From: Rhodanobacter denitrificans
GTDB lineage: Bacteria; Pseudomonadota; Gammaproteobacteria; Xanthomonadales; Rhodanobacteraceae
Reading direction: 5' to 3'
Length of the DNA stretch: 64,000 bases
Assembly: GCF_000230695.2 (NCBI RefSeq)
Contig: NC_020541.1
Span: 2,790,001 to 2,854,000, forward strand
The notes below the pieces were generated by a model. It did no database searches. It saw nothing but the letters and a program-made list of their open reading frames with translations, and was not told the DNA's origin. The position numbers and the translations under genes are program-made. How positions within the stretch are numbered: the first letter of the stretch is position 1; each line of letters opens with the position of its first letter. Shown here one piece after another: positions 8,698-21,860 of this stretch.

Positions 8698-10140
<1,443 letters not shown>

Positions 10141-10149
10141 GGCAGGCGC

Positions 10150-10773
10150 TCAGCCGATGCCGTGAACCACCTGCAGCGGGGCCACGCCGGCCAGGGGTGG
10201 CGCGACCTCGGCATCGGGCATTGCGATGTCGGGAATGTCGGCCAGCTCGTCGGCCGACAGTTCCGCGGCCAGCGCCGGCAGCGCCTCGACGGGTACCGGC
10301 GCCGAAGGCAGCCGGCCGTCCAGACGTCCGGAGCCTACCAGCTGGCCGATACGCAGGTAGACCTCGTCGCGGTCGAAGGGCTTCTGCATGAAGTCGTCGG
10401 CGCCGAAGCGTTGCACGTAGAACTGCTCGGTCGCCTGCGGGTTGCCGCTGATCATCACGATCGGGATGTCGCGGGTCAGCGGGTCGTGGCGCAGCGCGCG
10501 CAGCACCGCGAACCCGTTCATCCCCGGCATCACGATGTCCAGGAAGATCAGCGCCGGCCGTTCGCTGCGGGCCAGCTCGATCGCCTCCTTGCCGTCGGTG
10601 GCCTTGAGCACGGCGTAGCCGTCCTGACGCAGCATCTTGCCGAGCACGGCGCAGATCGTGGGCGAGTCGTCCACCACCAGCATGCGCGCGCCCAGCGCGG
10701 CCTGCGGCTCCACGCGATGTTCGGCAGCCGCCTGGCTACCCAGCAGGCGCTTGAAGAAACCGAAGCCATTCAT
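10150..10773 (-). CDS. Single-domain response regulator (copy 1)
   Basis: A 207-residue protein with one receiver domain (about residues 30-145) and no recognisable output domain. The acidic pocket is D35/D36, the phosphoacceptor is D79 in FLDIVMPGMNG, and the conserved lysine is K131. The N-terminus MNGFGFFKRLLG and the tail motif IPDIAMPD also occur in the paralogue at 11313-11900. The start is set by that alignment; an ATG six codons upstream (10791) is possible. The receiver domains resemble PilG/PilH or CheY-type regulators. The partner histidine kinase is not in the window. Confidence 0.85.
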   Translation of the reverse strand: MNGFGFFKRLLGSQAAAEHRVEPQAALGARMLVVDDSPTICAVLGKMLRQDGYAVLKATDGKEAIELARSERPALIFLDIVMPGMNGFAVLRALRHDPLTRDIPIVMISGNPQATEQFYVQRFGADDFMQKPFDRDEVYLRIGQLVGSGRLDGRLPSAPVPVEALPALAAELSADELADIPDIAMPDAEVAPPLAGVAPLQVVHGIG

Positions 10774-10883
10774 CAGTGCATGTCCGTCCATGCGAGCCCC
10801 CGGGCTTGTCGGTCGGCGGCGCCAACCCTTTGGATTGGCATGGATATTCCCGCAGATCCGGCCGACATTCTGCGATGCACTGC

Positions 10884-11282
10884 TCAGCGCCTGTCTCTGA
10901 GCCGTCGCAATTCGCGCCGCGCCTGCTTGTCCGGGCGCTTCGGCGGACCGCTTGCACCGACCAGGCGGTGCTGCTCGCGCACCGCCTCCCGTGCGACGCG
11001 ACTGGCTTCGGTCTCGGCGTACAGCGCCTGCGCCACGCTGGCCGGGCCACGCCGCTCGGACAGCGCCAGCACGCCGACCTCCAGCCGCTCCTCGCCGCGG
11101 CTGATCTTCAGCCGGTCGCCGGCGTGCAGGGTCTTCGCCGGCTTGCAGCCGGCGCCGTTGACGTCGATGCGGCCGCCGTCGATCGCCTGCCTGGCGAGAC
11201 TGCGGGTCTTGAAGAAGCGCGCGGCCCACAGCCACACGTCGACGCGCACGCCATTCGTCGGAGGGGCGGAAACTTGGCTCAT
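10884..11282 (-). CDS. hslR: Ribosome-associated heat shock protein Hsp15 (S4 domain)
   Basis: A 132-residue S4-domain RNA-binding protein. E. coli Hsp15 binds 50S subunits carrying a stalled nascent chain and helps recycle them. The S4 fold covers about residues 11-60, with VRVDVWLWAARFFKTRSLA and GGRIDVNG visible, followed by a basic C-terminal helix rich in arginine. Length matches the family (about 130). It lies between two paralogous response regulators on the same strand, an unusual setting suggesting that the regulator duplication flanked it. Confidence 0.92.
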   Translation of the reverse strand: MSQVSAPPTNGVRVDVWLWAARFFKTRSLARQAIDGGRIDVNGAGCKPAKTLHAGDRLKISRGEERLEVGVLALSERRGPASVAQALYAETEASRVAREAVREQHRLVGASGPPKRPDKQARRELRRLRDRR

Positions 11283-11312
11283 CGCGCCGATTATCGCGCG
11301 ATCGCGCGCCGT

Positions 11313-11900
11313 TCAGTCCTGCCCGGCAGGTGGCATCACCATGTCGTGCGGGTCCGGCATCGCAATGTCCGGAATGGCGGCGTGCTCGGCCGCGCTGGGT
11401 TCGGGCTCGGCCGGGATCCTTTCCGTCTCCGCCCGCTGGCGCACCACCAGGCGCCCGCTGCGCGTGAGGTTGTCGATGCGCGCGAATACTTCGCTGCGGC
11501 CGAACGGCTTCTTCATGAAATCGTCGGCGCCGAAACGCTGCACGTAGAACTGCTCGGTCGCCTGCAGGTTGCCGCTGATCATCACGATCGGAATGTCGCG
11601 GGTCAGCAGGTCGTGGCGCAAGGCGCGCAGGACCGCGAAGCCGCTCATGCCGGGCATCACGATGTCGAGGAAGACCAGGTCGGGGCGTTCGGTGCGCGCG
11701 ATCTCCAGCGCGCTTTCGCCATCGGCCGCCTTCAGCACCACGTGACGGTTCTGCGCCAGCATCTTGCCGAGTACCGCGCGGATGGTCGGCGAGTCGTCCA
11801 CCACCAGGATGCAGGCTTCCTTCGGCTCGCCGCTGCGCGGCGCCGCGCGGCGCTCGCCGTGATCGCCGAACATGCGCTTGATCAGTTCGAAACCTGCCAT
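11313..11900 (-). CDS. Single-domain response regulator (copy 2)
   Basis: A 195-residue paralogue of the regulator at 10150-10773. The receiver domain has D35/D36, phosphoacceptor D79 in FLDIVMPGMSG, and a conserved lysine in FMKKPFGR. Long stretches match copy 1, including DDSPTI, VLGKML and DIPIVMISGN. The C-terminal tail again contains IPDIAMPD. A clear ribosome site (GGGGGGAGCTCG) precedes ATG at 11900. No DNA-binding or enzymatic output domain is present, so it probably acts by protein contact. The 30-bp gap to hslR suggests co-transcription. Confidence 0.85.
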   Translation of the reverse strand: MAGFELIKRMFGDHGERRAAPRSGEPKEACILVVDDSPTIRAVLGKMLAQNRHVVLKAADGESALEIARTERPDLVFLDIVMPGMSGFAVLRALRHDLLTRDIPIVMISGNLQATEQFYVQRFGADDFMKKPFGRSEVFARIDNLTRSGRLVVRQRAETERIPAEPEPSAAEHAAIPDIAMPDPHDMVMPPAGQD

Positions 11901-11968
11901 GACACGAGCTCCCCCCGCCCATGAGACTGCGCTAGTCTCGGTGCAGCGGGTGCCCGGTGCAAGGGTTC

Positions 11969-12871
11969 CTAGCCGCCCAGCAGCCAGTTGCCCAGCGGGA
12001 CGGTAAGCAACGACAGCACGATGCCGGCACCCAGCACGGTATTGGCCAGCGCCGGCTCCAGGCCGTACTCGTCGGCCAGGATCGTCGCCGATACCATCGG
12101 CGCCATCGCCGCCTGCAGCACGCCGACGGTCAGCACCAGCCCGTCGACACCGGTGGCGGTGCCCAGCGCCCAGCACAGCAGCGGCGCCAGCAGCAGCTTC
12201 CAGCCCAGCCCCCAGCCCGCTGCGCCGAGTTGCCGCTGGCCCGGATGGAACTTGAACTGCAGGCCGACCGAGAACAGCGCCAGCGGCGTCAGCGTGGCGC
12301 CGATCGGCGCGAACACGCCATCCAGCAGCGCGGGCCAGCCACCGCACAAGCCGGCGACGATGCCCACCACTAGCGCGATGAACGCCGGAAACGTGACGAT
12401 GCGCCGGACGATCAGGCGTAGCTGCAGCGTGCGCCCCGAATAGACCGAAGCCACCACGATGCCGGCCGAGGCCAGCACCGGAAACGCCCCGATCTGATCG
12501 GCCACCACCGCCAGCGCCAGGCCCGCCTTGCCGTGCAGGGCCTCGATCATCGGATAGCCCATGTACGCCGTATTGCCCAGCCCGCAGACCAGGATCAACG
12601 CCCCCGTGCGCTGCCGCGACCAGCCCAGCCGCGGCCCGAGCAGGCCGAACAGCAGCCACGCGCCGCCGAAGGTGAGCCACATCGCCGCCACCGGAAACCA
12701 CAGCTGCGGATCGAACTTCAGCTTCGGGATCAGTTCCAGCACCAGCGCCGGCAGCGCCACGTTGAGCACCCACCAGTTGATGCCCGGCACGATCCCCGCC
12801 GGTGGTTTCGCATAACGCGCCACCAGGGCACCGAGGATCAGGCAGGCGAACAGCAGCAACATCGCGCTCAT
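11969..12871 (-). CDS. AEC family permease (auxin efflux carrier-like)
   Basis: A 300-residue integral membrane protein with about ten predicted hydrophobic helices in two inverted halves, typical of the AEC/YfdV transporter family. These carriers move small organic anions; the substrate cannot be told from sequence. Family-like features are the polar break NVALPALVLELIP in the first half and the late motif APMVSATILADEYG. I use ATG at 12871; an in-frame GTG four codons earlier (12883) is an alternative. It is divergent from the kinase gene at 13005, and the 133 bp between them contain no recognised regulatory element. Confidence 0.88.
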   Translation of the reverse strand: MSAMLLLFACLILGALVARYAKPPAGIVPGINWWVLNVALPALVLELIPKLKFDPQLWFPVAAMWLTFGGAWLLFGLLGPRLGWSRQRTGALILVCGLGNTAYMGYPMIEALHGKAGLALAVVADQIGAFPVLASAGIVVASVYSGRTLQLRLIVRRIVTFPAFIALVVGIVAGLCGGWPALLDGVFAPIGATLTPLALFSVGLQFKFHPGQRQLGAAGWGLGWKLLLAPLLCWALGTATGVDGLVLTVGVLQAAMAPMVSATILADEYGLEPALANTVLGAGIVLSLLTVPLGNWLLGG

Positions 12872-14141: not shown

Positions 14142-14180
14142 GCATGCTGCGGCGAATCGTGGTTCAATAGGCGCTTCTTG

Positions 14181-14257
14181 AAGCGGGGGTGCCCGGCGTA
14201 GCCGGGCTGAGAGAGTCCCTTGGAACCTGACCCGGTTAGTACCGGCGTAGGGAGCTT
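14181..14257 (+). promoter_or_regulatory. TPP riboswitch (THI element)
   Basis: The conserved THI-box blocks are present in order: GGGGGTGCCC, GGCTGAGAGAG, CCCTTGGAACCTGA, CCCGGTTAGTACCGGCGTAGGGA. The closing arms AAGC (14181-14184) and GCTT (14254-14257) can form P1. The element lies 67 bp before the TonB receptor start on the same strand. Thiamine pyrophosphate binding is expected to repress the receptor and PnuT. No terminator with a U-run follows, so translational control is more likely. Confidence 0.95.
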
Positions 14258-14324
14258 GCAGATCCGGCATGTCCTCGCGACAGCCGGGTCGCCGTCGCTT
14301 CGTCCGTACCCACCGACGACGACG

Positions 14325-16518: not shown

Positions 16519-17106
16519 ATGGTACGGATCGAACTCGCCGCCGCACTGGTCAGCGCCTGGGCCGTCTGGCTCACCACCCGCCGCCGCCCGTGGTGCTGGC
16601 CGGTGGGACTGGTCTCGGTGCTGGTCTACGCGTGGGTGTTCGTCCACGCCAAGCTGTACTCCGATGCGCTGCTGCAGCTGGCCTTCGCGCTGCTGATCGG
16701 CTACGGCTGGTGGCGCTGGCTGCAGCACATGGGCGGGGACGGTCGTGTGGAAGTGGCCGCCCTGCCGCGGCGGCAGGCCGTCGCGCACCTGGCCATCGGC
16801 GGCCTCGGCGCGCTGGCGCTGGGCGCGTTCATGCACTACCGCACCGACGCCGCGCTGCCCTGGCTGGACGCGGCGCTGACCGCCTTCAGTCTGGTCGCGC
16901 AGTGGTGGCAGGCGAAGCGGCACGTCGCTTCGTGGTGGCTGTGGATCGCGGTAGACGTGATCTACGTGGGCGAGTACGTCTACAAGCACCTGCTGATCAC
17001 CTCGGTGCTGTACGCCGGCTTCGTGCTGCTGGCGGTGCTCGGCCTGCGCGCATGGCGGCGCGTGGCGAAGACCGCGGCGCCACACCAACCGGGCACGGCT
17101 TATTGA
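16519..17106 (+). CDS. pnuT: PnuC-family transporter, probable thiamine permease PnuT
   Basis: A 195-residue inner-membrane protein with about seven hydrophobic helices. The PnuC-family signature is visible in WWQAKRHVASWWLWIAVDV followed by YVGEYVYK and a last helix. PnuC members carry nicotinamide riboside, and PnuT members carry thiamine. Assignment to thiamine rests on the upstream TPP riboswitch and the 10-bp spacing from the TonB receptor, which make one riboswitch-controlled operon. It converges on the SLOG-domain gene. Confidence 0.88.
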   Translation: MVRIELAAALVSAWAVWLTTRRRPWCWPVGLVSVLVYAWVFVHAKLYSDALLQLAFALLIGYGWWRWLQHMGGDGRVEVAALPRRQAVAHLAIGGLGALALGAFMHYRTDAALPWLDAALTAFSLVAQWWQAKRHVASWWLWIAVDVIYVGEYVYKHLLITSVLYAGFVLLAVLGLRAWRRVAKTAAPHQPGTAY

Positions 17107-17108
17107 AA

Positions 17109-17140
17109 GATCGGCACGGCTCCGGCCAGCCGAACCGATC
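17109..17140. terminator. Hairpin between convergent pnuT and SLOG genes
   Basis: GATCGG (17109-17114) pairs with CCGATC (17135-17140), and CGGCT (17117-17121) pairs with AGCCG (17128-17132). It fills the gap between two convergent stop codons and could end transcription from either side. No strong U-run is present on either strand. Confidence 0.45.
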
Positions 17141-18824
17141 AGAGCTTGCTGTGCTCCACCTGGCGTTCGCGCTGCATCAGCGTCCATTCGGCGTGTTCGG
17201 TCAGTGCCGCGTCGCCGAGCGAAAGCAGGATCTGCCGCTGCAGCACGGGATCGTGCGTGCGGTCCAGTGCCGCGCGCGCGCTGGCGAAGATGCGCTGCAT
17301 GAAGCGGTACTGTCTGATCAATTCCTTGTCGGCCTTGCGGTAGGCGTAAGCCTCGCGCACGGCGGCGATGATCGACAGCACCGCCATGATCAGCACCAGG
17401 ACGGTCTTGGTGTCGTGCGACAGCCGGTGCACGAACACCGCCAGGAACACGCTGATCGCGACGCCGCCCCACAGGCTGAGCGAGCCGACCACCTCGGTGA
17501 CATGGTGCAGTCCGGTGCGCTCGGCGGTCTTGCGCTCGTAGTAATGAAGCTGGCCGGACTTGCCGGACTCGCCGACCCACTCCGCAATGACCTGCGTCAG
17601 TGCCGCGGGCGACGGCTGCGCCGGCCGGGTCGCCGCATGGAGGCCGGCGGCACGCATGACGTTGCGGATCCAGCCCAGCTCGATGTTCTGCCTCTGCAGG
17701 AAGTTGTCGTGGGCGAACTCGTGGTCGGCGTTCGCCGAGATGTTCGCCCGCTGCCAGTACGACTGGATCCGCAAACCCTCCGCCAGCGCGCGGTAGTCCA
17801 GGTACTTGCGATGCCAGCCGCGGCGCCGGGCCAGCATCGCCACCGCGCCGCCGCTGGCGAACAGCAGCAGGAACAGGTAGATCAGGAAGTCCTGCGCGGG
17901 CAGATGGGCGTAGAACGTGAAGGCGATGCCCATCAGTGCCGCCAGCGTGTAGGTCAGGCGCATCGCCAGCAGCACGCGCCGCTGGAAATGCAGCGCCAGC
18001 CAGTCGGCGGCGTGGAACAGGCTGTCGATGTCTGCCGCGTCACCCGCCGCGTCGGCCTGCCGCACCGATGCCGCGATCTCGCCGGCATATGTGTCGCACT
18101 CGCCGTTGAACTCGACCATGCGCGCGAACATCAACCGGAAATCCGCCGGCAGGCTGTCGGCAGCTGAAACCGTATCGGCGGTGCGCCACAACGTCTGCAA
18201 CGGCAGCAACCCGGCGGCCGGCGCGCCATCGGCCCCGTCGCGCGAACAGACGATGTGGTAGAGCAGGCTCTCGTCGCCGCCGCCCAGCACGTGGCGCGTA
18301 TCCTGCCGCCGGTCGATCAGGCCGGGCATGGTGCCGTTCAGGTGGTAGTTGACGATCTGCGCGGTGCCGCCGAGCCGGCCCGATACCTTGCCGTCCCAGA
18401 TCGCCAGCAGGATGTGGCAGTGGCTGGCGATATACACGCCGGCCTTGGCGTACTGGCGATCGCGCGCGAGGCCCGGCGTGCCGAGATCAAGCAACAACTG
18501 CCCCTTCGGCGGCGGTAGCGGCACGATCTCGGCCTGATTGCACAAGCGGTGAAAGTCGGCACGCACGGCCGCACTGGAGAAGTCCTCGACGTACAGATCC
18601 GGCGGCAGCGGCAGCGGCGCGACCAGCCGTGCGCCGGCGGCGAGCGCCTCCTGCGCCACCAGCTGGTCGCCGCCCTCGGCCAGCGCGGACACCACCACCA
18701 GCGGCAGCCCGGGGAAATCGCGCCGGAGCTGCGCCAGGAAATCCCGCACGCATTGCCGGATCGGCTCGATTTCGTCGGCGGGGATGTTGCGATGGCTGGT
18801 GACGCCGATGACCAGTGGAGTCAT
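17139..18824 (-). CDS. SLOG-domain protein with four-helix membrane region
   Basis: A 561-residue protein. Residues 1 to about 200 look like a SLOG (Rossmann-like, DprA/LOG superfamily) nucleotide-binding domain: VIGVTSHRN at the N-terminus, VVSALAEGGDQLVAQEAL at 44-61, and HILLAIWDG at 137-145. Hydrophobic helices follow at about 284-305, 311-332, 450-467 and 472-490, with soluble helical linkers. This resembles the SLATT-type helix pairs found with nucleotide-signalling conflict systems. A good ribosome site (CAGGAAG) precedes the ATG. It is last in a minus-strand cluster with a TIR-TPR protein. Likely role: a sensor or effector that binds a nucleotide signal and acts on the membrane (inference). 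Confidence 0.75.
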   Translation of the reverse strand: MTPLVIGVTSHRNIPADEIEPIRQCVRDFLAQLRRDFPGLPLVVVSALAEGGDQLVAQEALAAGARLVAPLPLPPDLYVEDFSSAAVRADFHRLCNQAEIVPLPPPKGQLLLDLGTPGLARDRQYAKAGVYIASHCHILLAIWDGKVSGRLGGTAQIVNYHLNGTMPGLIDRRQDTRHVLGGGDESLLYHIVCSRDGADGAPAAGLLPLQTLWRTADTVSAADSLPADFRLMFARMVEFNGECDTYAGEIAASVRQADAAGDAADIDSLFHAADWLALHFQRRVLLAMRLTYTLAALMGIAFTFYAHLPAQDFLIYLFLLLFASGGAVAMLARRRGWHRKYLDYRALAEGLRIQSYWQRANISANADHEFAHDNFLQRQNIELGWIRNVMRAAGLHAATRPAQPSPAALTQVIAEWVGESGKSGQLHYYERKTAERTGLHHVTEVVGSLSLWGGVAISVFLAVFVHRLSHDTKTVLVLIMAVLSIIAAVREAYAYRKADKELIRQYRFMQRIFASARAALDRTHDPVLQRQILLSLGDAALTEHAEWTLMQRERQVEHSKL

Positions 18825-18967
18825 GTGGCTTCCTGGCGATGAATGGTCACGATGGACAGGTCACACGCAGCTTCGCCGGCCCATGCTTCGCAGGAATCCA
18901 TGCGGCTGCCTTCTCGCGAAGCTGCATGAGCTGCTGGACGCATGGCGTGGTATCGGCGCCAACGCGC

Positions 18968-19129
18968 CTACGTGTTTTTTATCATCGGGTTGGTGGCTTG
19001 GTCCGGCGTTGGCGTTCCTGTCAGCCCGGATTCGGCAACGGGTTCGCTGGCTGCAGCGTCCGTCTCGTTGTCGGCGGGCGGAGGCACTGCCGGGGTGTTC
19101 TGATTTTCCTTGCTGGTGGTCTTGGACAT
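18968..19129 (-). CDS. Small acidic protein with TNPMIKNT tail
   Basis: A 53-residue protein that I do not recognise. It is low-complexity, rich in Pro, Ala, Glu and Asp, and probably disordered, with no signal peptide. A ribosome site (TGGAGACC) precedes ATG at 19129. Its last eight residues, TNPMIKNT, nearly repeat the end of the next upstream protein (TNPTIKNT). It lies between that gene (38 bp) and the SLOG gene (143 bp) on the same strand. The gap to the SLOG gene holds a 9-bp inverted repeat (GCAGCTTCG at 18867 and its complement at 18917) and no gene. Confidence 0.6.
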   Translation of the reverse strand: MSKTTSKENQNTPAVPPPADNETDAAASEPVAESGLTGTPTPDQATNPMIKNT

Positions 19130-19167
19130 GATGGTCTCCAGAGTGTTGGAACCGATGGATGCAGACG

Positions 19168-19566
19168 CTAGGTATTCTTGATCGTCGGATTCGTGGTCTG
19201 CCCCGTGATGGAGGTCTTCTTCGACTGATAGACCGTGCCGCCGATCGTGGCGCTCAGCTGGTAGATCCAGGTTCCTGTCGTGCTGGCGCTGTTGTTGAGG
19301 TCGCTCATGGTTATTTCGTTGCCGTTCGAGCTGAGCGTCGGGGAGCCGAAGATGCCCGCCGGTGGCGCCGGGTCGACCCAGGCGAAACCCGGCTCGGCCG
19401 CGTCTTGCGCATTGAACGACCCCGACGCCGCATTGCCGCTCAGCTGCCAGGTGATGGTCTGCGCGTTGGGGCCTCGGCTGACGTGGTTCGCGTTGTCTTT
19501 CTGATCGATGTCGAGACTTGGCGGGCTCGTGCTGTTGTCGAGGGTGACCTTGAGAAGGTTTGGCAT
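19168..19566 (-). CDS. Small beta-rich protein with TNPTIKNT tail
   Basis: A 132-residue protein with alternating hydrophobic residues and many Ser, Thr, Asn and Gly, suggesting one Ig-like beta-sandwich (TITWQLSG and GTWIYQLSA look like strands). No signal peptide or membrane segment is seen. It may belong to the DP-EP family of unknown function, which I suggest from memory with low confidence. ATG at 19566 has a ribosome site (CAAGGAA). The C-terminal eight residues TNPTIKNT match the neighbouring 53-residue protein. It sits 80 bp downstream of the TIR-TPR gene in the same orientation. Confidence 0.7.
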   Translation of the reverse strand: MPNLLKVTLDNSTSPPSLDIDQKDNANHVSRGPNAQTITWQLSGNAASGSFNAQDAAEPGFAWVDPAPPAGIFGSPTLSSNGNEITMSDLNNSASTTGTWIYQLSATIGGTVYQSKKTSITGQTTNPTIKNT

Positions 19567-19646
19567 GATGGATTCCTTGGTGATGAGGGTTTGATCCGAT
19601 ACCGCACTTGCCGGTGTTGCCTTTTCCCTGTTCGTCTTGCCCAGCC

Positions 19647-21860
19647 TTACTGGCGGGCGCTGGTGTCGGTTGCCGCCAGCAGCTTCTGCTGGAATGCCGC
19701 ATTGACCGGGTAGTCGATCCGCTCTCGCCGCAGCACGGCCAGCAGCGCCGCATCGCGGTAGCCGCTGCTCCACAGTTGCCGGATCACCGGCTGTGCCTCG
19801 GTCTTTCTGCCAAGCGCAAGCAGGGCTTCAATTTGCAACGCCAGCAGCCGGGGATCGCTGCCGCCGCTTTTCACCGCTTTCACCGCACTCAATGCGTCGT
19901 CGCGCAATTGCTGCGCGGCGCTTGCGTCGTCGGTGACCGCGGCAAGCAACAGCTTCGCGCCCACCGTGGCCAGCAAGGTGGCCCGGTCGTCGGGTTGCTG
20001 GGCGAGCAGTGGGTCGAGCATGCTCAGCACGGCCCGGGCCTGCGCTCGCGCCACGTCGGTCCGGCCGGCGGCTCGCGATTGCGCGGCCTGTTCCAGTCGC
20101 GCCTCGGCAAATCCACGCTGCCAGGCAGTGTTGTCCGGGTCCTGTCGGGTCAGGCTGGCGAAGATCGCCAACGCCTGCGCGGTGAGCGCCGCCGGCGCGG
20201 TCGCGCCGCCGCTCAGGCGCCGCAAGCGGCTCAGCTGGGTGGCGTACAGTGCCGCATGTTCCTGGAAGTCGGTATTGCCCGGATCGGCCGTCCGCAACTG
20301 CATGGCGATGTCGACCGCCTGCTGCAATCCGGCGATGCCAGAGGTGACATTGCCGGCCAGTGCCTGCGTACGTCCCAGGATGGCGTGCACGGTCAGCATG
20401 CTGTCACGCTGGCTGGTGTCCTTGGGATCGCGCGCCGCCAGCGCGGACTCGATCGCGTCGTCGGCGGCGTATTGCGCGATCGCTGTAGCCAGCTCACCAC
20501 GCATCAGCGCCAGCTTGCCGAGATTGTTGTGTGCCACGCCTAGCGATGCCGCCCACTCGGCATTGCCGGGCTGGGCCGCGACCAGCTTGCGCATCAGGAG
20601 CAGCATGCTCCGGTACGAGAGCATTGCATCGTCCAGTCGGCCGCGCGCCTCCATCGCATGGCCGAGGTTGTTGTCGATCGTCGCCAGCTGGAACTGCAGT
20701 TGCGTGTCATCCGGCGCGAGCACGCGCGCGCGCTGCAGGATGGCCTGCGCCGCCACGAAATCCCGCTGCGCGGCGTCCAGCTGTCCCTGCCGCCAATGGG
20801 TCATGCCGATGAACGCGTGGATTTCCGCGACGGCCAGCTGTCGCGGCACATCGGCGGGCGCGCCATCGGCGAGCGCACCCGCCAGCTTCAGGGCTGCCTG
20901 ATAGGACGTCATCGCCGCAGGCAGATGGCCCTGATCAAGCCGCATGCTGCCGATCTTCTCCAGCGCCTTGGCGCGCTGGGCCAATGCCTCGTCGGTCACA
21001 TCGGCGGTCGGCAACGCCTGGAAGTAGCTCATCGCGTGGTCGTCCACCGCTTCCAGGAGGTCCAGCCGCGAGGTTCGTGCCAGCTTGTCGTTGAGGTCGC
21101 CGAGCATGAAATTGACCAGACTCTCGGCCTGCTTCTGCCGGCGCTCGGCGGCCTGGCTGGCGACCACGGCGGCATGGCGGGCGATCAGCGCGGTGATCGC
21201 CAGGGCGGTGGTCCCCGCCATCACGATCAACGCCAGCGTGGCCAGCGCCGCCATGCGCCGGGCGCGTCGCTGCAATTCGCGCCGCTTCAGCACGTCCAGG
21301 CCGACGTCGAGCATGCCGGCGATCAGCTTCAGCTTGGCGTTGGCCTTGCCGTCCTTGCCCGGCCGCACGTCGGCGGCGATCGGCTCGGTGCGCTGGTGGC
21401 TCAACTCGCCGTCCGCGCCGAGTGGATGACGCAGCGCCGGCGCGAAGCATTCCTCTGCGGCGCGGCCGGGCAGCTCGCTGGCGCCGGGTTCGCCGTCCAC
21501 GATCAGGCAGAAGATGCGCTCGCTGCGCCCGAGCCGCTTGAACGCCAGCACCTCCTCGTTGACCCAGCGCGAACTTGCCGAGTGCGGCGAACAGATCACC
21601 AGCAGGCTTTCCGACTGGGCCAGCGCCTCGTTGACCTTGCGGCCCAGGTCGGTGGCGCTGGCCAGTTCGTCGCGGTCGCGGAAGATCGGCGCGAGACGGG
21701 CGGGGATCTCGCCGAACGCCGTCGCCTGGCCGACCAGGCGCTTCGGCACCGCATAGGTCTCCAGCGCCCGGTGCAGCCAGCCCGCCCAGGCCTTGTCCCG
21801 GTGGCTGTAGCTGATGAAGGCGCGGTACCGGCATGCCGGCGTCGCCGAGGCTGGCGTCAT
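19647..21860 (-). CDS. TIR domain, transmembrane and TPR-repeat protein
   Basis: A 737-residue protein. Residues 10-150 form a bacterial TIR domain (YRAFISYSHRDKAWAGWLH at 12-30, then SLLVICSPHSASSRWVNEEV); E102 or E103 after W99 is the candidate catalytic glutamate of NAD-cleaving TIR enzymes. A basic linker leads to one membrane helix at about 204-226. The C-terminal 500 residues are helical TPR-like repeats, with A, L and Y/W spaced as in TPRs. ATG at 21860 has GGGAGCG upstream. Members of this architecture are suspected signalling or defence proteins. It is the first gene of a minus-strand cluster with two small proteins and a SLOG membrane protein. Confidence 0.82.
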   Translation of the reverse strand: MTPASATPACRYRAFISYSHRDKAWAGWLHRALETYAVPKRLVGQATAFGEIPARLAPIFRDRDELASATDLGRKVNEALAQSESLLVICSPHSASSRWVNEEVLAFKRLGRSERIFCLIVDGEPGASELPGRAAEECFAPALRHPLGADGELSHQRTEPIAADVRPGKDGKANAKLKLIAGMLDVGLDVLKRRELQRRARRMAALATLALIVMAGTTALAITALIARHAAVVASQAAERRQKQAESLVNFMLGDLNDKLARTSRLDLLEAVDDHAMSYFQALPTADVTDEALAQRAKALEKIGSMRLDQGHLPAAMTSYQAALKLAGALADGAPADVPRQLAVAEIHAFIGMTHWRQGQLDAAQRDFVAAQAILQRARVLAPDDTQLQFQLATIDNNLGHAMEARGRLDDAMLSYRSMLLLMRKLVAAQPGNAEWAASLGVAHNNLGKLALMRGELATAIAQYAADDAIESALAARDPKDTSQRDSMLTVHAILGRTQALAGNVTSGIAGLQQAVDIAMQLRTADPGNTDFQEHAALYATQLSRLRRLSGGATAPAALTAQALAIFASLTRQDPDNTAWQRGFAEARLEQAAQSRAAGRTDVARAQARAVLSMLDPLLAQQPDDRATLLATVGAKLLLAAVTDDASAAQQLRDDALSAVKAVKSGGSDPRLLALQIEALLALGRKTEAQPVIRQLWSSGYRDAALLAVLRRERIDYPVNAAFQQKLLAATDTSARQ

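Follow-up and report, generated by a model that had tools for sequence, protein, structure and literature searches.

A TIR-TM-TPR and SLOG-SLATT gene cluster of Rhodanobacter denitrificans with small proteins that share a C-terminal tail

We analyzed a stretch of 64,000 nucleotides from Rhodanobacter denitrificans (NC_020541.1, positions 2,790,001 to 2,854,000), here called the window. It contains a cluster of four genes at positions 17139..21860, located on a single strand and separated by gaps of 80, 38 and 143 bp, as already observed in the preliminary description. The genes, and the tails of the two small proteins, are as follows.

17139..18824, minus strand: SLOG-SLATT-SLATT protein, 561 aa (Pfam DUF4231 and SLATT_3, NCBIfam SLATT_1, structure model)
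18968..19129, minus strand: S2, 53 aa, acidic and of low complexity, ending in TNPMIKNT (tblastn, blastp)
18968..18991, minus strand: tail of S2, N-P-M-I-K-N-T and stop (whole-genome pattern search)
19168..19566, minus strand: S1, 132 aa, ending in TNPTIKNT, with a predicted beta-sandwich fold like that of SO1698 (DP-EP)
19168..19191, minus strand: tail of S1, N-P-T-I-K-N-T and stop (whole-genome pattern search)
19647..21860, minus strand: TIR-TM-TPR protein, 737 aa (Pfam TIR_2, ThsB_TIR and TPR_2; 44-sequence alignment A4; TM helix and flanking charge)

The four genes are real and are inherited together as a unit. In genome G192, approximately 160 bp separate the genes found here on either side of the cluster, none of the cluster lies between them, and the genome carries its own cluster elsewhere. 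In a set of 233 genomes, with TIR matches selected by hand among the matches listed (very short ones and those to the TM-TPR half only were excluded), both genes were present in 86 of the 91 SLOG-SLATT genomes, and a TIR-TM-TPR gene was located within 5 kb of 80 of 93 SLOG genes. The 93 SLOG matches exclude 12 short fragments, among them those of five of the eight genomes scored as TIR only (G043, G083, G179, G214, G221). The remaining five of the 91 genomes had no retained TIR match among those listed, four of them (G005, G012, G133, G137) showing a short match in the TIR search. Outside the family, a TIR-TM-TPR-like gene was found within 5 kb at 23 of 40 SLOG-SLATT loci and another TIR-like gene at 6 of 40; Pfam TIR_2 was confirmed in five of these six, one being a SIR2_2-TIR_2 fusion. 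Nine of the 17 out-of-family loci that lacked TIR-TM-TPR had no TIR-like gene of any kind within 5 kb, and two more end near a contig edge. The expectation that the genes co-occur beyond close relatives was thus borne out for TIR and SLOG, both of which extend to other families of the order. Matches in 14 plasmid records covered the SLOG part only, none exceeding 80% of the query, and the TIR protein gave no match in phage records.

The TIR-TM-TPR protein consists of a TIR domain at approximately residues 15-125 (W99xxxE103), a basic stretch, one TM helix and a TPR region that reaches the C-terminus. The Pfam matches to TIR_2 and ThsB_TIR were above cut-off. Residue E103 of the W-x-x-x-E motif, the catalytic TIR glutamate, was conserved without exception across the 44 sequences of alignment A4 (the window and 43 of 63). 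In having a TIR domain with this glutamate, the protein agrees with the TIR proteins of Thoeris. A phmmer search of PDB sequences with the TIR protein gave no match.

In the model of the SLOG-SLATT-SLATT protein, a SLOG domain at about residues 1-220 is followed by helical hairpins at 264-335 and 424-497. DUF4231 scored 27.3 bits against a cut-off of 24.7, identifying a SLATT-type two-TM hairpin, and the scores of SLATT_1 and SLATT_3 were under their cut-offs. The fold matches of the model were YpsA, DprA, ShosA, ThsA and TRPM, the latter with ADP-ribose in some PDB titles. The SLOG profile gave no match to PDB sequences. A Rossmannoid fold and conserved pocket residues assign the domain to the SLOG superfamily; its invariant residues sit in post-strand loops, the place of the SLOG pocket, in agreement with the nucleotide pocket anticipated earlier. 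A SLOG-like domain on a membrane protein is also found in channels of the TRPM2/TRPM8 type, where it is N-terminal.

The preliminary description had proposed a Thoeris-like system. The logic of a TIR-to-SLOG relay is supported, but by sequence and domain make-up the cluster is not a member of Thoeris. The Thoeris effector ThsA is a SIR2-SLOG protein or a described TM or macro variant. The effector here falls outside that class because it is SLOG-SLATT-SLATT, with no match to SIR2 or macro, nor to ThsA in PADLOC, at E-values up to 1; PADLOC gave only weak matches on the cluster. Unlike Thoeris, with its ThsB TIR and ThsA SLOG proteins, the cluster has a TIR domain fused to TM-TPR, an effector with SLATT hairpins in place of SIR2 or macro, and additional small tail proteins. 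Thoeris is further characterized by antiphage activity and by the making and sensing of cyclic or His-ADPR. Aravind and colleagues predicted SLATT to be a membrane effector regulated by nucleotides or ADP-ribose derivatives, and noted TIR proteins with SLATT neighbors in firmicute phages (PMC9503650, PMC7159879). The TM-TPR receptor and the tail protein distinguish the cluster from these TIR-SLATT and SLOG-SLATT conflict systems, neither being mentioned in the accessible text of the descriptions.

The small proteins S1 and S2 are the most distinctive part of the cluster. The C-terminal pattern NP-x-IKNT matched twice in the whole genome, both times within the cluster. Both genes end in the stop codon TAG, the I, K, N and T codons of the two tails differ synonymously, and apart from the tail blastp detected no homology between S2 and S1. 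Relatives of S2 were found by tblastn in L004, L006, L011, L013 and L182. The invariance of the tail rests on alignment A1, which was selected by homology (the query and 23 of 105 homologues); alignment A2 comprises the window and 52 of 91 loci.

In a census that counted identical last 150 residues once, retained near-duplicates and scored one tail between tandem TIR genes for both, a strict tail adjoined 61 of 87 full TIR-TM-TPR genes, as compared to 2 of 193 controls, and a loose tail 77 of 87, as compared to 24 of 193. Among the ten loose-tail misses (seven were re-inspected, plus L134 and L137, with L024 left out), four had a variant or internal tail, and no tail was found for six of the 87 genes. 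A cruder census that included out-of-frame ORFs gave 61 of 103 TIR ORFs against 0 of 118 controls. A SLOG gene was located within 2.5 kb of 59 of the 87 genes. A strict tail within 1.6 kb was seen at none of the 17 SLOG loci outside the family that lack TIR-TM-TPR within 5 kb, and tail proteins were present in stretches without SLOG (L012, L016, L017, L020, L110, L112, L113); the tail therefore tracks the TM-TPR gene and not SLOG. It was also found without an S1-type protein (L014, L107). One explanation is a plain two-gene Thoeris-like antiphage system with the small genes as bystanders, as the co-occurrence of TIR and SLOG and the ThsB_TIR match would suggest, but the recurrence of tail proteins next to TIR-TM-TPR genes, and also next to TM-TPR genes that lack TIR, makes this very improbable.

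Unrelated tails at one locus change in concert. Residue x2 was common to both proteins in 16 of 20 pairs (8.9 expected) and residue x1 in 8 of 20 (2.6 expected); the pairs are non-independent, L006 and L011 giving three each and some loci sharing ancestry. The tail ORFs for this and the two following analyses were selected by motif, as was A6, and the constancy of P, I/V and N in them is by construction. The same tail was present on proteins of 42-71 aa without the S1 domain, and among the 87 distinct tail proteins encoded at TIR loci, the residue before the proline was Asp in 35 and Asn in 30.

The predicted fold of S1 is SO1698-like, with SO1698 as the best match in VIA-align; Foldseek alone ranked the MakC/MakD entry 8rqy first. 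SO1698 is a self-cleaving endopeptidase (Pfam DP-EP, PF08985, the former DUF1888) with the same tail at its C-terminus, and self-cleavage is reported for the S. oneidensis member in a citing paper (PMC11655445). In SO1698 chains of the wild type and of variants Y26F, K98A, P115A and Q118A, the aligned range ends at residue 116, as compared to 122-123 for D37A, S114A, D116A and P117A, which is consistent with cleavage at D116-P117. S1 differs in that it has no match to PF08985 (nor have 33 members of A3, at E-values up to 1) and in that Asn replaces the scissile Asp; both S1 and S2 have Asn-Pro, not Asp-Pro, near the C-terminus. Searches of PDB sequences gave nothing credible for the S1 profile (best E 0.84) or profile A5 (best E 1.7), and no match or one at E 0.56 for single tail proteins. 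The tail could be a remnant of self-processing, S1 being a DP-EP-type autoprotease whose C-terminus serves as an edge strand in cleavage or folding and not in TPR recognition. The fold, the SO1698 chain ends and the strand formed by residues 128-131 of the S1 model agree with this. We nevertheless regard it as unlikely, given that the tail also occurs on the 42-71-aa proteins, where it varies along with that of S1, and that the Asp is found in fewer than half of the distinct tail proteins.

PF08985 was dropped as a general marker, as it was found in 1 of 151 genomes of the order (below cut-off) and 1 of 369 of the class; its use is limited to the family of G850, where it occurs in 10 of 79 genomes (nine over cut-off). 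With a DP-EP-like tail protein as the query, a protein search retrieved only six close relatives. The literature searched gave no physiological role or partner receptor for DP-EP.

The N-terminal output domain is swapped among TM-TPR relatives. At 14 loci that match the TM-TPR half only (L120-L133, of more than 14 among the matches listed), a D-P-x-[VM]-x-N tail protein was encoded just downstream in 13, and the five scanned were of the winged helix-nSTAND1-TPR type. In another family, all nine DP-EP genes above cut-off follow a winged-helix-nSTAND1-TM-TPR gene (Pfam was run on four of the receptors, and a TM helix was found in eight of nine). A tenth DP-EP gene (G937), below cut-off and with one in-frame stop, had no such neighbor in stretch L180. 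A diguanylate cyclase gene is sometimes present alongside the winged helix-STAND NTPase type.

The side of the TM helix facing the N-terminus was richer in K/R in 80 of 86 TIR-type receptors (six ties), in 9 of 13 winged-helix-type receptors (two ties, two reversed) and in six of the nine DP-EP-linked receptors (two ties, one without a detected TM). The TPR region is thus probably on the opposite side of the membrane from TIR, outside the cytoplasm. The idea that the TIR protein carries its own TPR sensor and membrane anchor therefore stands as regards the parts, with the sensor probably across the membrane from the enzyme. S1 and S2 have no signal peptide. Tail proteins resembling signal-peptide proteins numbered 6 of 76 outside L060-L099 (mostly Rhodanobacteraceae; all other loci, including a small number of contigs from elsewhere or of unknown origin), 17 of 25 in L060-L099 and none of nine for DP-EP. 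An extracytoplasmic TPR, set against the missing signal peptides of S1, S2 and DP-EP, counts against tail-TPR recognition. A portable C-terminal motif on proteins both with and without signal peptides might alternatively be an export or localization signal for the TM-TPR protein or a secretion machine, with TIR and SLOG as conventional Thoeris-like defense under another trigger. TPR proteins frequently serve as adaptors, but Sec-type signals are already present on several of the tail proteins, no secretion genes came to notice in passing next to the clusters, and we find this explanation improbable.

We read the TM-TPR protein as a receptor of the tail with an interchangeable output, which here is TIR and SLOG-SLATT. 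The TPR half would be the sensor and would recognize the C-terminal P-x-I-x-N tail of S1 and S2, and recognition, or its loss, would shift the cytoplasmic TIR to another oligomeric state. The TIR would then cleave NAD+ to an ADP-ribose-type nucleotide, the SLOG domain would bind it, and the two SLATT hairpins would permeabilize the membrane, leading to cell arrest or death. We give this transmembrane receptor-to-effector relay, taken as a whole, an even chance. The nucleotide relay from TIR to SLOG is likely; as proposed earlier, with a membrane effector, it is supported by the invariant E103, the SLOG loop residues and the co-occurrence, since SLOG-SLATT co-occurs with TIR-TM-TPR and elsewhere may lie near other TIR proteins. 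Linkage and elimination moderately favor binding of the tail by TPR, and membrane disruption by SLATT is about as plausible, somewhat better than even. A role against invaders is possible, at slightly less than even chances. The proposed reading of a tail by TPR resembles RRNPP receptors, whose TPR domain reads a short encoded peptide; these are cytoplasmic Gram-positive regulators without TM, TIR or a DP-EP partner.

More tentatively, and with the balance tilting against it, the TM-TPR proteins may form an undescribed receptor family with swappable outputs, whose ligand is a P-x-I-x-N C-terminal peptide encoded next door and, for DP-EP, possibly self-released. Non-exported tails and an extracytoplasmic TPR would then constitute a detector of membrane breach or kin lysis, receptor and ligand meeting only after membrane failure. 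If the tail is the piece that the sensor recognizes, this would be an undescribed wiring of a bacterial alarm, with an output swappable between relatives: a bacterial TIR enzyme would be wired to a transmembrane receptor that reads an encoded peptide tail, and the self-cleaving DP-EP proteins would gain a function.

A gene of the PnuC family of NMN transporters (16519-17106) was considered as a functional NAD partner and rejected, given a TPP riboswitch and a placement independent of the cluster. It is more likely a thiamine transporter, because the riboswitch (14175-14270) precedes a TonB receptor gene. Within the genus, 43 of 45 genomes carry the PnuC-family gene, and in L181, where the cluster is absent, it still adjoins its TonB gene. 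A DUF4124 gene is located in the window flank, and the genome has a second TIR gene.

The two small proteins of the four-gene cluster, S1 (132 aa, with an SO1698/DP-EP-like predicted fold) and S2 (53 aa, acidic), end in TNPTIKNT and TNPMIKNT, respectively, and their sequence similarity is confined to these last residues. The pattern P-x-I-K-N-x-stop has exactly two sites in the whole 4.2 Mb genome, namely S1 and S2. The synonymous codons for the tail residues I, K, N and T differ between the two genes, and the likeness is thus not the result of a recent DNA copy. Across S1 and 23 of its 105 homologues, residues P, I, K and N never vary; in an alignment of S1 relatives (33 rows), the same holds for P and N, with I and K at 90% or above. 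At least three kinds of protein carry the tail: those with S1-/DP-EP-like domains, short acidic ones resembling S2, and short ones that begin with a signal peptide (loci L006, L011 and L143).

A small ORF with a strict tail was found near 61 of the 87 full-length TIR-TM-TPR genes, as compared to 2 of 193 control genes at the same loci; with the loose tail definition the numbers were 77 of 87 and 24 of 193. Three of the ten genes missed by the loose definition (L007, L147 and L160) have P-R-I-K-[PST] tails instead. At a fourth, L118, the sequence downstream of the TIR gene (9876-12047, minus strand) encodes an internal D-P-V-I-R-N and, after it, a hydrophobic C-terminal segment, which would suit a membrane-anchored tail protein. 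For the other six, i.e. 6 of the 87 genes, no tail was found. No strict tail was observed within 1.6 kb at any of 17 SLOG loci outside the host family that have no TIR-TM-TPR gene within 5 kb, which shows that the tail accompanies the TM-TPR gene and not SLOG. Tail proteins and a TM-TPR gene also occur together in stretches without SLOG (some of these genomes carry SLOG elsewhere) and without S1.

Unrelated tail proteins at the same locus were compared in 20 pairs, which are not fully independent. Position x2 of P-x1-I-x2-N was identical in 16 pairs versus 8.9 expected by permutation (none of 20,000 permutations as high), and x1 in 8 pairs versus 2.6 expected (P 0.0003). Among the eight pairs without Lys at x2 in both proteins, four agree (WVRN, I/V-D-N, IIIN, IHN) and four differ. 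Such agreement is expected if a single partner reads both tails. The simplest candidate for this partner is the TM-TPR protein, since the tails persist with its gene where SLOG or S1 is missing.

In the family genomes, the TIR protein also hits, through its TM-TPR half, proteins of about 1,090-1,310 aa; 14 of these matches were fetched (L120-L133). In 13 of the 14, the protein encoded directly downstream is small and has D-P-x-[VM]-x-N at its C-terminal end or close to it; no such protein was found at L132, the weakest match. Domain scans of five of the 13 receptors identified a winged helix (Trans_reg_C), nSTAND1 and TPR, and all 13 winged-helix-type receptors have a hydrophobic helix in between. 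In another family of the class, Pfam DP-EP matched 10 of 79 genomes, nine above the cut-off. All nine genes directly follow a gene for 1,069-1,109 aa, which was winged helix-nSTAND1-TPR in the four scanned, and a hydrophobic helix follows the gene region of the winged helix-nSTAND1 part in eight of the nine. The gene after DP-EP encodes PAS-GGDEF in three of three scanned, once on the opposite strand. In the order, L141 has a 1,119-aa gene of similar look followed by two DP-EP-like tail proteins. The N-terminal output domain varies while the receptor half and the tail protein remain paired. The winged-helix-nSTAND1-TPR, DP-EP and PAS-GGDEF genes form one run at L172 (5350-10200) and, similarly, at L162 and L173-L179 (PAS-GGDEF where scanned).

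A TM was detectable in 86 TIR-TM-TPR genes. K/R residues are more numerous on its N-terminal flank in 80 of them and equal on both sides in the other 6, from which the TIR domain is predicted to be inside and the TPR outside the membrane. Among the 13 winged-helix receptors this flank has more K/R in nine, equal in two and fewer in two; whatever the charge, the DNA-binding N-terminus of these receptors should lie inside. Using a crude predictor, a signal-peptide-like start was found in 17 of 25 tail proteins from L060-L099, in 6 of 76 from other loci (one, L104, doubtful) and in none of the nine DP-EP proteins. For a cytoplasmic tail to meet an outside TPR, export of a released peptide would fit, and so would contact only after membrane failure.

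The 233 genomes of the host family gave matches to SLOG-SLATT in 98 and to the TIR protein in at least 124, some via the TM-TPR half alone. After removal by hand of short fragments and TM-TPR-half-only relatives, SLOG-SLATT was present in 91 genomes, TIR-TM-TPR in 94 and both in 86, among the matches listed (Fisher P = 2e-47, ignoring kinship of the genomes). A TIR gene was within 5 kb of 80 of 93 SLOG genes among these matches; for the remaining 13, it was distant on the same contig in two (235 kb and 1.2 Mb) and absent from the contig, among the matches listed, in 11. In one genome (G192), the DUF4124 and PnuC genes that flank the cluster in the window are about 160 bp apart, measured between aligned parts, with no cluster genes between them, and the cluster of this genome sits at a distance of about 91 kb. 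The four-gene cluster is therefore an accessory block.

In the order, SLOG-SLATT was matched in 104 of 398 genomes. The preliminary description had placed the TIR and SLOG genes in one signalling system, and their co-occurrence indeed extends beyond close relatives: a TIR-TM-TPR-like gene was within 5 kb at 23 of 40 SLOG-SLATT loci fetched from other families. Another TIR-like gene was present at six further loci (L070, L076, L080, L088, L090 and L095), a contig edge was near in two, and no TIR-like gene was found within 5 kb at nine. TIR_2 was present in all five scanned of the six, as three TIR-TPR proteins of different type, one TIR protein and one SIR2_2-TIR_2 fusion (L076). These recurring NAD-processing neighbours are the main support for a NAD-derived signal, and the nine loci count against such an enzyme being obligatory in cis.

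The different-type TIR-TPR proteins are close to SLOG-SLATT at L070, L088 and L090. At L076 (2223-6859), an nSTAND1 protein and SLOG-SLATT come after the fusion, and at L080 a TIR-like ORF and a gene with a similar ending lie ahead of SLOG-SLATT. Plasmid records H5 and H7-H9 carry distant single SLOG domains, which their annotation either places next to caspase family proteins or calls DUF4231 proteins. The R. denitrificans genome itself encodes a second TIR_2 protein (C1:4136895-4137260, locus L001; 464-aa frame, E 1.1e-23).

SLATT is described, in the text available from PMC9503650 and PMC7159879, as a predicted nucleotide-regulated membrane effector with TIR-SLATT neighbours. The available portions of PMC8195603 and of the MakC/MakD paper (PMC11484084) do not mention the tail, and no naming of the tail or of the DP-EP-TM-TPR pairing was found in the accessible parts of the literature on SLOG/SLATT/TIR, Thoeris, nSTAND1/TPR, DP-EP/DUF1888/SO1698 and MakC/MakD. 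Within the literature covered, the proposed TIR-to-SLOG-SLATT relay is a variation on a known kind, and the tail-receptor pairing appears to be new.

The neighbouring PnuC-family gene was considered as a NAD link and rejected. A TPP riboswitch (14175-14270, plus strand; Rfam RF00059, 70.1 bits) lies upstream of a TonB-dependent receptor and this transporter, which points to thiamine uptake, and the two genes probably form a thiamine uptake operon.
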